Assembly: GCA_947311105.1 (NCBI GenBank)
Contig: CAMZKG010000014.1
Span: forward strand, 1 to 42,678
From: an uncultured Saprospiraceae bacterium
GTDB taxonomy: Bacteria > Bacteroidota > Bacteroidia > Chitinophagales > Saprospiraceae
Length of the DNA stretch: 42,678 nt
Direction of reading: 5' to 3'
Part shown: in pieces, positions 10,590 to 23,685 of the stretch
How the letters are laid out: each line of letters starts with the position of its first letter
How positions within the stretch are numbered: the stretch's first letter is position 1
Translations under genes and position numbers: made by a program
Notes under the pieces: generated by a model
Seen by the model: the letters and a program-made list of their open reading frames with translations, nothing else
The model's database searches: none
Told to the model about the DNA's origin: nothing

Positions 10590-13500
10590 TTATTTAAGGA
10601 CAGTGATATTTCCTTTCTTGAAGTACTTTTCACCATTGTCACATTTTACACGCAAGTAGAATCCATACACATCAGGGACTACCGGCTCACCATTAAAAGT
10701 ACCATCCCAACCCACACTTTGGTTACGAGTATCAAATACTTGTTGTCCCCATCTATTAAAGATTGACAAGTGTATTTCGCTTAGATTCAAACCCCGAAGG
10801 AACAACACTTCATTTTGGCCGTCACCGTTAGGAGAGAAAGCATTAGGGAGATAGATATATGGCTCTCCGCATTCTGTTTCTTTTACTTCAATTGTAATGG
10901 ACCTTTCTGTTGAACAACCATTCGTATCCGTCACGACAACGGTATAAGTTGTAGTTTCTTTCGGACTAGCGACAGGATTAGCTACATTAACATTATCCAA
11001 AGAGCCATCATCGGGTGTCCATTGGTAGCTAACAAAACCGCCTGTAGCTTCCAGCTCGGTAGTTTGGCTACGATAAATTGGATTTTCCGTAGCAGAAACA
11101 TCCACCGAAATATCTATGACATCTACCTGTGCGGTATCCGTTGCGGAACAACCATCAGCATTGGTTACCACTGCAATATAAGTCCCAGAATTAGTAGGAT
11201 TGACCACCAAAGGACTTCCTGTACCAACTAGATTATTGTCCAAAAACCACTTCACATCTTCACCAGCTTGCACCGCATCAATCTCTAAAGAAGCATCTTC
11301 CCCCATACAAAGCGTAAAATCATTTTGGGTGATAGCCATCGCGACAGGATTTACGACAACTTCAACGGTGTCTATCTTTTGGCAACCTTCTGCATTTGTG
11401 GAAACAGCATAATAGGTACCAGGATTCACCATCATTGCCACATCCATGCCTATCGGAGTAGTCAAAGATGGATCGTCATACCAATTCAAATCATCACCTG
11501 TATACGTCGCGTTAATTTGGACTAGAGCTTGATTATCACACACGGTGGTATCTCCTGCTGCATTTACGGCAATTGGGGCTACAACCACAGTCACTTCTTT
11601 TGTAACCATACAAGAGTCTGGCCCATTGACATTGACAATATCAACCGTATAAATAGTCGTTGTGTCTGGACTAGCCAAAGGATTCGTACTAGAAGCGTCG
11701 TCTAGCCCAACAGCAGGCGACCAAGTATATTGATAAGTTGTATTTCCGCCAGGATTCAAGCTTACGCCTTCTTGCCCACAAATCAAAAGAGAATCCGGAA
11801 TATTAACATTGTTAATTGCATCAAAAGCGACTGTTTTTTCTAGCGAAAGCGAACAACCATCAGGAAACTCAATGGTCAATTTAGCCAAAAAATCAGCACT
11901 ATTCACAACGCCAGCGGGTATTGTAGGGCTTTGAGTCTTATATTCTGTAGGAAACTCCCATGTCCAATCCGTAATAGCCTGCGGTGCAGTTGATAAATCA
12001 ACGAACTGAATACTATCAATACAACCAATGTAGGTAAAATCAAAATCGACCTTTGCTTCTTGCCCAACAACTACTTCGAAAGGAATTGAGTTGGCGCATG
12101 TCGTGTCATTCGGTACTAACATCACATTATAGGTACCCATGCCTAATGCATCGAAATCAAAATCGGTGTTTGAATTTGTGCTAGTTGAGCCATCAGGGAA
12201 CAACCAGTAAAAATCACTTGAATTTGCATTACTATTTTCTAGGTCCAACACAAATCCATTACATTGCTTGTAAGAGAGTAGATTTTGATCAATAGTAAAA
12301 GCAGCAGGATCTGTCACTCCCAAATCAACCGTTTGAGTTACAACACAGCCCGAAGCATTAGTCATTTGTACTTCTAGGGTATGGTTGCCTGTTAAGTTGG
12401 TATTCAAAACAGGACTAGCCGTATTGGCTCCAGACTGAATCATATTAGCAGGTGTCCAAACATAGTCAATGGCACTACCATTATTATTCTGGACATTAAT
12501 TTGTAGCGCATCACCCATACAAGCTGTTTGAGCGCTAGGCACTGCCACATCAATCACATCAAAGTCCACAGGCTTGGTAACGGATGCAGCGCACCCATTG
12601 GCAAAACTAACATTCAAGGTAACTGACCCTGGATTTGACGCAAACTGTGCAGTTTGCTGTTGTTGATTGCCAGAAAAGCTCCAATCATAGGTAGCATTTG
12701 GATCATTGGGATAAGCTGTAAAGGCTACATCCAAGACATTATTATTACATCCCATCAAAGCAAAGTCAAAATCAGCTGACATGGAGTTCTCGCCTACTGT
12801 TGCTGTATAGGTAGCTGAACATCCAGCCGCATCTGTAGCCGTAACAGAGTAAGTACCAGGCTCTAAATTATTTAAATCTTCTGTATGTGGGTCAACAAAG
12901 CCCGCAGGCCCTGTCCAGTTATAAGTCACTGGCCCAACTACCGTACTCGGCATCAAATCAATACTACCGCCAGTACCATTACAGTCTTTATCGACGACAT
13001 TAGCATTCAAGTCAAACCCTGGCCCTACAGTTACCCAATTATCATGTGGGCAATGATTCGCATTCATGACACACAGATACATCGTACCTGGCTCCGTAAA
13101 AGTATAAAAAGAATCCGTTGACATTAGTTGCCCATTAAGTATCCACATATACATATAAGGCTCCACTCCACCAGTAGCAAAAGCAGTAGCCGTCGCTGGG
13201 ACACCACACTCCGGATCTTTTACAATGGTTACTTGCGTGGCTGGCGGATTAGCAATCGTCCCAGATGCCACAGAAGTACATCCTGCTCCATCAATTACGG
13301 TAACGGAATAGTCGCCAGCACTCAAACCAGAAATATACACATCCGTTGAGCCCGTATTCCACAAGAACGAATATGGCGCTTGACCTCCAGTTGCAGTGAC
13401 CACCCCAACTCCATCATTATAGCCGTTACAAGTAATATCACTCAATTCGATATTAGCTTGTAATGGGTTATTCACCGGAGCCGCCGCCACACTATTACAA

Positions 13501-13991
13501 CCAAAAACATCCGTAATCGTAACAGCCAAATGGGACACATTAGGATTTTGGATAGTAGAAGTTGTCTCACCTGTATTCCACAGATAAGAATAAGCAGGAG
13601 TACCACCTTGCCCCACTGCCGCATACGTGTCACTTGTACATGGATCGCCCAACAATTGGACACCAGCAGTAATTGCATCAGGCTGCAGGAGGGTAAAAGA
13701 CTTAACAGCCGTTAGCCCATTAGCATCGGTAACAGTTAGAGAATAATCTCCACCCGACAGACTCCAAGCCATCTGACCACCAGCCGTAGCCACACTCCAT
13801 TGGTAAGAATATGGTTCTTGCCCTCCTGTGGCCAAAGCCGTAGCACTACCATTAGTATAGCCATTACAGGTAGGTTTCTGTAAGTCTAAATTTATTTGAA
13901 TTTGGGCGGATAATTTTACTCCCATTGAAGTTAGAGCTAGTACGAATACCAAGCTCCAAAACTTATTTGGAAAAGATGTAAAATTGTTCAT
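10590..13991 (-). CDS. T9SS type B sorting-domain adhesin with SprB-like repeats
   Basis: Repeats of GGQEPYSYQW..LSAGDYSVTVTDANGC; C-terminal gliding-motility-associated domain YIYLPNAFSPNGDGQNEVLFLRG..IFNRWGQQVFDT..GWDGTFNG. Confidence 0.92.
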   Translation of the reverse strand: MNNFTSFPNKFWSLVFVLALTSMGVKLSAQIQINLDLQKPTCNGYTNGSATALATGGQEPYSYQWSVATAGGQMAWSLSGGDYSLTVTDANGLTAVKSFTLLQPDAITAGVQLLGDPCTSDTYAAVGQGGTPAYSYLWNTGETTSTIQNPNVSHLAVTITDVFGCNSVAAAPVNNPLQANIELSDITCNGYNDGVGVVTATGGQAPYSFLWNTGSTDVYISGLSAGDYSVTVIDGAGCTSVASGTIANPPATQVTIVKDPECGVPATATAFATGGVEPYMYMWILNGQLMSTDSFYTFTEPGTMYLCVMNANHCPHDNWVTVGPGFDLNANVVDKDCNGTGGSIDLMPSTVVGPVTYNWTGPAGFVDPHTEDLNNLEPGTYSVTATDAAGCSATYTATVGENSMSADFDFALMGCNNNVLDVAFTAYPNDPNATYDWSFSGNQQQQTAQFASNPGSVTLNVSFANGCAASVTKPVDFDVIDVAVPSAQTACMGDALQINVQNNNGSAIDYVWTPANMIQSGANTASPVLNTNLTGNHTLEVQMTNASGCVVTQTVDLGVTDPAAFTIDQNLLSYKQCNGFVLDLENSNANSSDFYWLFPDGSTSTNSNTDFDFDALGMGTYNVMLVPNDTTCANSIPFEVVVGQEAKVDFDFTYIGCIDSIQFVDLSTAPQAITDWTWEFPTEYKTQSPTIPAGVVNSADFLAKLTIEFPDGCSLSLEKTVAFDAINNVNIPDSLLICGQEGVSLNPGGNTTYQYTWSPAVGLDDASSTNPLASPDTTTIYTVDIVNVNGPDSCMVTKEVTVVVAPIAVNAAGDTTVCDNQALVQINATYTGDDLNWYDDPSLTTPIGMDVAMMVNPGTYYAVSTNAEGCQKIDTVEVVVNPVAMAITQNDFTLCMGEDASLEIDAVQAGEDVKWFLDNNLVGTGSPLVVNPTNSGTYIAVVTNADGCSATDTAQVDVIDISVDVSATENPIYRSQTTELEATGGFVSYQWTPDDGSLDNVNVANPVASPKETTTYTVVVTDTNGCSTERSITIEVKETECGEPYIYLPNAFSPNGDGQNEVLFLRGLNLSEIHLSIFNRWGQQVFDTRNQSVGWDGTFNGEPVVPDVYGFYLRVKCDNGEKYFKKGNITVLK

Positions 13992-21937: not shown

Positions 21938-21953
21938 AAAGCCGCTTGGGCAT

Positions 21954-21984
21954 AAAAAAAGGTCGCATCTCTTTTGACGCGACC
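21954..21984 (-). terminator. Terminator of RNA copy A (converges on the esterase gene end)
   Basis: Minus: GGTCGCGTCAAAAGAGATGCGACCTTTTTTT. Confidence 0.75.
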
Positions 21985-22166
21985 CAAACAACAAATTATA
22001 ATCCCATGAACATATCGTAAATCCCTTGCGGGAATTTTTTTCAAATTAGGAGTAAGCTAAATCCCTTCTTAAATAGCTTACTCCTTAAAGGGGTTTTTAA
22101 ATCCCATGAACATATCCAAAAAACAATTCCTATCACTTTTGAAAAGAATGTGTATTTCCTTTTTGA
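21954..22166 (-). ncRNA. Structured small RNA, copy A
   Basis: Minus-strand promoter TTTG-N19-TATCTTTG (+ coords 22199-22202 and 22172-22179); direct motif GATATGTTCATGGGATT at 22000-22016 and 22100-22116; 12-bp hairpin 22048-22085; terminator GGTCGC..GCGACC + T7 at 21954-21984. Confidence 0.7.
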
Positions 22167-22289
22167 TGATACAAAGATAATATCAAAGTCATATTAGACA
22201 AATAACAATGAACTTGCACTGTGAAGACTTATCCCTACTTTCCTAGCCACAACAATCTACAAATCAACTACTTATGAGATGATTTTGTG

Positions 22290-22321
22290 AAAAAATGTCG
22301 CATCTCTTTAGATGCGACATT
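22290..22321 (-). terminator. Terminator of RNA copy B
   Basis: Minus: AATGTCGCATCT-AAAG-AGATGCGACATTTTTT, perfect 12-bp stem. Confidence 0.85.
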
Positions 22322-22588
22322 AACAACAAATTATAATCCCATGAACATATCTTAAGTTCGCCTAAAAAACGGTTTCCCGTAAAAAAATATTCTTTTTATG
22401 GCGACTATTTCTCAATTAATTTATTAACACTCTCCTAATCTGCTCTTTTCTACCCAACTGTTAACTTTAATGTATTTAGGAGATAGTTATTTCCCTTCTA
22501 AAATAACTATCTCACTAAATATCCCATGAACATATCCAAAGAAACAAACTTCATTTTTCACTTTTGAATTGTTGCTTATTTCCTTTTA
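22290..22588 (-). ncRNA. Structured small RNA, copy B
   Basis: Same architecture as copy A: conserved 5' region TTTGTATC..AAAAGGAAATA..TTCAAAAGTGA, GATATGTTCATGGGAT at 22335-22351 and 22521-22536, hairpin 22480-22513 with the same loop, extra hairpin 22359-22403 with GAAA tetraloop, terminator 22290-22321. Confidence 0.7.
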
Positions 22589-22932
22589 CGATACAAATAT
22601 GGGAGTATATCTAAGAGAAAAAAATAACATAAAATTTTTTTTGTGAACAACAACGAACTAGCATATATGCAAAATAACAGCATAACCCGCTTATTACCAA
22701 TATATTATGACCATTTATTTGTGAATAGAAATCTTATCATATCTATTCAAATATTCTAAAAAAAAAGTAATCTTATTGCTAATAGCGGGATGAATATGGA
22801 AGAAATGGAGCTGAAGAAGCTAAGAAAACTGAACACGGCGTAGATGCAAGCCGCTGCGGCAGCACCAAAGACCAACAGCGACGAAGGAGCGCACTAAAGA
22901 CCAAAAGCGAGCAAAGCGAGCGTACATTGACA

Positions 22933-23685
22933 CTAATAAGAAAACGAATACTCCATATTTTTGGACAACCAATCCATTTGCGGAAGCGCAGGAGAAATAA
23001 TCATAGGATAAGCCGTTAAATCCATGATAGAGTCATTTCTTTGGAAGACCTTCTTAAGATCAAATACAATTTCTATTTCATTGCCAGATTCTACGACCGA
23101 AAAGCTCTCATTCAGTGAGACCTGTCGATAACTTTTATCTTCAATGATTTTGATACTAAAAGAAGTAGTATCTGCTGCCAAATAATACTCGCCCGCAATA
23201 TCTTCAAAAACATAACTAAGATATTGGCTAGAATAACGATCTACAACACCCAAAGGACTTCCCGTAGAAAAGTTTTCAGGACTTTGATTGTTATCTTCAT
23301 GCCCGACACCAAACCCAAACTTTATGCCTGTATAGTCACCTAAAGGTACTGAAAAATAAGACTGCACCCATCCTTTCTCAGAAGTGCTCATATCATATTG
23401 GGCGTCCGCAATATCCAAATAGGCGATTTCGTCCAAGGCAACTTCATCTGTTCCGTTGGCGGCGACTAGAGAGATATCTGACAAGAAGATAGCCAAGTCA
23501 TCAAATTTTATACTGCCGACCGATGGATAGGCATACTCCTTGCCTGCAATAAATGGCTCGTCGCCAAATACTGTTTTTATAGACACTTGCACAGTAGCAG
23601 ATGGCCCCACAGGGGGATCCTTTCTACATGAGCCACATGAGAAAACTACGGCAAACAAAACAAGAAATGATAAAAGCTGACGCAT
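22933..23685 (-). CDS. MbnP family protein (lipoprotein)
   Basis: Lipoprotein-like N-term FAVVFSCGSC; Y..GSIKFDDLAIFLSDISLVAANG..; domain pattern recalled for MbnP-like proteins. Confidence 0.7.
   Translation of the reverse strand: MRQLLSFLVLFAVVFSCGSCRKDPPVGPSATVQVSIKTVFGDEPFIAGKEYAYPSVGSIKFDDLAIFLSDISLVAANGTDEVALDEIAYLDIADAQYDMSTSEKGWVQSYFSVPLGDYTGIKFGFGVGHEDNNQSPENFSTGSPLGVVDRYSSQYLSYVFEDIAGEYYLAADTTSFSIKIIEDKSYRQVSLNESFSVVESGNEIEIVFDLKKVFQRNDSIMDLTAYPMIISPALPQMDWLSKNMEYSFSY

Follow-up and report, generated by a model that had tools for sequence, protein, structure and literature searches.

Tandem small-RNA units of a Saprospiraceae bacterium and their family: predicted antisense pairing with the translation starts of SprB-type adhesins

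Two structured units lie in tandem on the minus strand of a contig from an uncultured Saprospiraceae bacterium, and each of them displays the same linear motif twice. What kind of RNA might these units encode, and with which partner could the motif interact? Beyond the genus Bacteroides, knowledge of RNA regulation in Bacteroidota is scarce. The window in what follows is the whole stretch of 42,678 nt that was analysed, and the two units, their parts and the adhesin gene given with coordinates are on the minus strand.

The two units in the window

The original prediction described two minus-strand units of ordered architecture, and every sequence element that it named was found on that strand. 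The promoter that it had called textbook is present ahead of unit A as TTTG (22202-22199), a 19-nt spacer and TATCTTTG (22179-22172), and it coincides with a promoter-like block seen throughout the family. The predicted RNA of unit A, of about 210 nt, occupies 21951-22168 with a putative transcription start and contains, from 5' to 3', a leader hairpin region with TTCAAAAGTGA and an A-A-A-G type loop (22121-22150), assigned from pairing in the family; a first motif copy that is an exact match limited to the 5' core GATATGTTCATGGGAT (22101-22116); the main 12-bp hairpin AGGAGTAAGCTA/TAGCTTACTCCT (22048-22085); a second hairpin with a GCAA loop (22016-22037); a second, full motif copy, GATATGTTCATGGGATTATAATTTGTTGTT (21987-22016), whose predicted antisense part, assigned from the family motif and adhesin pairing, is GGGATTATAATTTGTT; and a terminator hairpin with a T-run (21954-21985). 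In unit B a -7-like CATATTTG (about 22601-22594), again within the family-wide block, precedes a predicted RNA of about 300 nt (22288-22592), with an exact first copy of the 5' core (22521-22536), the main 12-bp hairpin GAGATAGTTATT/AATAACTATCTC (22480-22513), a full second copy (22322-22351) and a terminator hairpin with a T-run (22289-22320). The main, GCAA-capped and terminator hairpins are read from both sequence and predicted fold.

The motif does occur twice per unit, as had been proposed. GATATGTTCATGGGAT is exact at 22101-22116 and 22001-22016 in unit A and at 22521-22536 and 22336-22351 in unit B, and a genome-wide search run with its core, the 15-mer ATATGTTCATGGGAT, gave no further exact copy in the 3.83 Mb genome. 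With up to three mismatches there were four matches against 0.47 expected, and 0/100 shuffles had four. Both units fold better than their shuffles (z of -3.96 for unit A and -5.15 for unit B), and both are kept in two congeners with unchanged order and nearly unchanged sequence. The covarying main stem of the original prediction stands in part: the two stems are there, but the difference between A and B alone is thin evidence of covariation. No change was found in the stem of unit A among the two congeners, and the stem of unit B shows one within-genus change, AATAAC to AGTAAC, that retains a G-U pair. Stronger structural support comes from the pairing of the leader hairpin across the family. 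Likewise, the loop core AGAAGGGA, described as unchanged, was seen to be conserved only inside the genus of the window.

Spread and anatomy of the family

No Rfam 15 family matched the units at gathering or relaxed thresholds, and our literature searches found no named Saprospiraceae RNA of a comparable kind. Relatives of the motif are nevertheless frequent. A 27-nt version with up to three mismatches is present in 117 of 199 Saprospiraceae genomes, often in several tandem copies, and the reversed motif gave 0 matches over the same genomes. With a 24-nt version, 65/87 sampled Saprospiraceae were positive versus 3/212 genomes from other families of the order; all three of the latter were single hits with three mismatches, and inspection of two of them put the first at what is probably a gene start and gave no placement for the second. 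The carriers in a scan of GTDB contigs were Saprospiraceae and Saprospirales MAGs, other Bacteroidota MAGs, Phaeodactylibacter luteus and Flavilitoribacter nigricans. Each locus holds one to six modules, mostly spaced by 90-335 nt. As judged by these sequence comparisons, the small-RNA family of units A and B is real, widespread and almost confined to the Saprospiraceae, and it is previously unlisted; the null Rfam search, the spread among relatives and the conserved promoter-like block all support the earlier idea of an sRNA family lacking an Rfam name. Variant modules with an altered 5' half (TTTTTCATGAGATTATAATTTGTT, AGAATCATGGGATTATAATTTGTT) recur in congeners (G132:C1:6138-6161; G028:C7:62521-62544; G155:C122:24158-24181; G062:C1:4761424-4761447), which suggests that there may be subfamilies.

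A conserved block, TTTcACAA-N-TTTTTGTctTTGT-N16-ATatTTGTAttGTgA, lies upstream of 124 of the 150 arrays, and we take the Bacteroidota TTTG/-7 promoter to be readable within it. At nearly all loci (124/150 arrays) a TTCACAA box is also conserved a few nucleotides ahead of the TTTTTGTCTTTG element, in the window at about 22218-22226 (unit A) and 22640-22650 (unit B), and it could be the binding site of a common regulator. The promoter block is followed by a 5' end rich in purines, then by a hairpin whose loop is of the A-A-A-A-G type, and finally by the motif, which has an A/T spacer on its 5' side and a variable hairpin on its 3' side. The stem sequence of the leader hairpin varies across the family while its pairing is retained, 3.83 of 7 pairs being kept, a value above the 3.44 that was the most any of 500 partner shuffles reached. 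In the motif itself TGTTCATGGGATT is conserved at 98-100% over 281 modules and the following ATAATTTG is softer, figures that are inflated by the selection of these modules for motif similarity. Modules inside arrays, such as the first copies of A and B, may keep only GTTCATGGGAT, and the full motif stands directly ahead of the 3' terminator, in predicted units of 210-300 nt. For GTTCATGGGAT, the 5' half and the less variable of the two, the probable role is either to bind a protein or to serve as an anti-start-codon extension.

The genes downstream of the arrays are distributed 72 versus 73 on the two strands, so the RNA is generally no leader of the following gene, and an attenuator of the downstream gene was rejected on the same count. 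From this distribution, the promoter-like block and the terminator-like hairpins found at arrays, we infer that the RNA is a separate transcript. Two kinds of neighbour recur at the arrays: SprB-repeat adhesins, of which 31 proteins form one cluster, and, upstream, a cluster of 23 proteins that on our own reading of their sequence would be di-haem peroxidase-like. The units in the window are flanked on one side by genes for an MbnP protein and a 2553-aa PKD/SprB/CHU_C protein and on the other by those for a PorP/SprF protein and an SprB/CHU_C adhesin. The MbnP gene (22933-23685) is upstream of units A and B, and at 23 other arrays the peroxidase-like gene has that position, which hints at a locus once shared in an ancestor.

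The motif is also found in phages. In seven viral contigs (L163, L164, L165, L167, L169, L224 and L237) it lies 5-24 nt past a phage stop codon and is followed by a hairpin, usually with a T-run. Gene order and sequence indicate that the preceding gene in L165, L167 and L169 is likely a tail-tube gene, and holin-like genes are also among those whose stop codon precedes motif and hairpin. In L221 motif and hairpin occur with no phage gene just before them. Other matches to shorter patterns are inside coding sequence and chance-like, and named phage and plasmid records gave motif matches at chance level only. The phage copies are possibly 3'UTR RNAs that mimic the host RNAs.

Complementarity to adhesin translation starts

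The 3' half of the motif, GGGATTATAATTTGTTAG, is complementary to the starts (ACTAACAAATTATACATCC..ATG) of giant SprB-type adhesins secreted by the type IX system, which are marked by ACAAATTAT shortly ahead of the start codon. The best of 1553 translation starts was that of a 3672-aa secreted protein (-30.3 kcal/mol, matched by 0/240 shuffled motifs), and further top-ranking starts belong to large secreted proteins too. We collected adhesins by their N-terminal protein sequence from 150 family genomes and parsed 20 start regions. Their mean duplex energy was -22.0 kcal/mol versus -14.0 ± 0.94 for shuffled motifs (0/300), the best-pairing start codon having been chosen among several candidates for adhesins and shuffles alike, and the 20 adhesins are not independent samples because they were found via homology to one of them. 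The mean was -23.9 (0/300 shuffles) for the 12 with a motif upstream on the same strand, the nearest copy being mostly 260-680 nt away, and -19.2 versus -14.6 for shuffled motifs (0/300) for the eight without one in the fetched stretch. Ten loci parsed later divide into five at -20.9 or lower and five from -14.6 to -17.4. Apart from a one-base bulge, the adhesin-start consensus ACTAACAAATTATA(C)ATCC..ATG is the complement of GGATTATAATTTGTTAGT, and the most invariant bases, GTTCATGGGAT, pair just partly in most adhesins.

As the adhesins are related, the co-variation of RNA and target was examined. Over 19 linked pairs, each RNA paired with its own adhesin at -22.2 on average versus -20.6 ± 0.52 for swapped partners (43/10000 permutations); a smaller run with seven linked pairs gave 365/5000 permutations. 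A clear compensatory change was seen in L369, where the RNA has GGATTATGAAT and the adhesin start ATTCATAATCC.

This complementarity is restricted. For translation starts taken as a whole no surplus of complementarity to the motif was seen, on which ground a general anti-start-site action was rejected, and Saprospiraceae show no genome-wide enrichment of the site pattern ACAAATTATNNATCC versus other families; the target set must therefore be narrow. Among 370 genes in 0.53 Mb (14%) of the genome of the window, no translation start was better than shuffles, and the SprB-repeat/CHU_C adhesin of the window (1133 aa, 10590-13991), a gene of the target class, has a start that is only weakly complementary (-10.8). 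When two congeners were searched for an orthologue of the 3672-aa target protein, no orthologous N-terminus came up. We consequently make the claim of antisense action on adhesins strongly for the adhesin-linked members of the family and, because of the null result in their own genome and the unenriched pattern, more weakly for units A and B.

The explanation that we favour, with a probability of about 0.6 for the antisense account as a whole, is that units A and B are paralogues within a multi-copy family of Saprospiraceae regulatory antisense RNAs, resembling Bacteroides FopS in outline and differing from it in layout and target. Each module would consist of the linear motif GGATATGTTCATGGGATTATAATTTGTT(AG) beside a variable hairpin or terminator, with GGGATTATAATTTGTTAG serving as the antisense seed. 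This seed would pair with giant SprB-type adhesin mRNAs at their start codon and ribosome-binding region (ACTAACAAATTATACATCC..ATG) and block their translation, and the RNAs would work in trans from several loci, one copy in many genomes also lying a few hundred nucleotides upstream of the matching adhesin. Judging from its sequence, the near-invariant stretch probably acts as a common off-switch for very large secreted proteins; we infer repression and its direction, as well as any action of A and B on adhesins of their own genome, from the computed pairing. Only as a tentative and rather doubtful extension do we envisage a family-wide antisense network on giant gliding or surface adhesins, in which free RNAs, adhesin-upstream copies and phage 3'UTR copies would be interchangeable motif-plus-hairpin modules and phages could rewire the host surface.

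For such a near-invariant RNA module, kept across an entire environmental family, the target class would be one that can be computed and that belongs with the largest and most costly proteins of that family; on the antisense reading the module is a regulator of type IX-secreted adhesins that lends itself to direct testing. Phage infection would be linked to control of the cell surface as well if phages truly use the same module.

Rival readings and known RNAs

The decoy role that had been suggested for the repeated motif is not the best reading, given the complementarity of the 3' half to adhesin starts, the RNA-target co-variation and the lack of matches to CsrA and Hfq, the obvious decoy partners, in six Saprospiraceae genomes. 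In its general form, repeated single-stranded GTTCATGGGAT would sequester an RNA-binding protein in the manner of CsrB, for example one of the RRM-1 type, and this would agree with the one to six modules at each locus and with the 11-13 nt invariant core that persists in modules without the antisense half (the first copies of A and B). An RRM_1 protein, of the domain class of Bacteroides RbpB, is indeed encoded in the genome of the window (G000:C91:321-530) and in three relatives, but it was not found in the motif-bearing G417 and G428, and in six Saprospiraceae genomes neither CsrA (with a positive control) nor Hfq gave a match. As protein titration also leaves adhesin-start complementarity and co-variation unexplained, we consider it unlikely.

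Co-variation of linked pairs would be expected as well if the motif were part of the adhesin mRNA 5' leader and folded onto its own start site, and the same-strand motif upstream of 12/20 adhesins, mostly 260-680 nt off, fits that arrangement. However, a hairpin and T-run separate motif from adhesin, most arrays have no adhesin downstream and show the 72 to 73 strand distribution, the downstream gene in the window is convergent, and complementarity extends to adhesins without a linked motif, so that such a cis-acting leader appears still less likely. We regard as very unlikely that the motif is a 3'-end module tuning termination or mRNA stability and used likewise by phages: it is nearly always beside a hairpin, and the phage contigs do show stop codon, 5-24 nt, motif, hairpin and usually a T-run, but there is no exact motif elsewhere in the genome of the window and the adhesin complementarity would be left unexplained.

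Other partners were tried and rejected. Pairing with 16S and 23S rRNA, the E. coli molecules standing in for those of Saprospiraceae, was no better than that of shuffles; the duplex of the motif with E. coli 5S rRNA reached -19.3 kcal/mol with 1/30 shuffles as good, and is probably chance. A micro-ORF (ATG TTC ATG GGA TTA TAA) was discarded because internal modules lose the frame while conserving the core wobble positions. None of ten near-matches in the genome of the window, considered as antisense targets, was at a convincing start site, and a CsrA or Hfq RNA was dismissed, both proteins being undetected in the six Saprospiraceae genomes.

The favoured antisense family can be compared with three known systems. 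It shares with CsrB/RsmZ sponges a short repeated motif displayed between hairpins, but here CsrA is undetected and the motif is long and linear, with a complementary mRNA partner. 6S-Flavo (RF01685) is likewise a strongly structured small RNA of Bacteroidota, whereas the modular layout described here is unlike the 6S rod; RF01685 had no match in the window or its genome, although the control genomes of the genome scan gave no match either. Closer is FopS of Bacteroides thetaiotaomicron, a set of 14 paralogous RNAs of about 65-70 nt that repress SusC transporters. These RNAs have one conserved seed, located 5'-terminally, with which they block start codons in the mRNAs of surface transporters; RbpB, an RRM-1 protein partner, is their antagonist, and one member derived from a 3'UTR as well as a phage copy belong to the set (PMC11697453). 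Our family and FopS/GibS have in common their occurrence in Bacteroidota, several paralogous copies with their own promoters (here promoter-like blocks), one conserved seed with start-codon pairing on surface-protein mRNAs (here predicted), a 3'UTR-derived member (here a possible one) and a phage-borne copy (PMC11697453). They differ in that the family does not have the form of a short RNA with a 5'-end seed: its predicted RNAs are of 210-300 nt instead of about 65-70 nt, its full seed adjoins the terminator, its modules are repeated in tandem and its predicted targets are SprB-type adhesins and not SusC transporters (PMC11697453). We do not file the family as FopS and, by analogy, would take FopS as its closest working analogue and as the mechanism precedent in the phylum.
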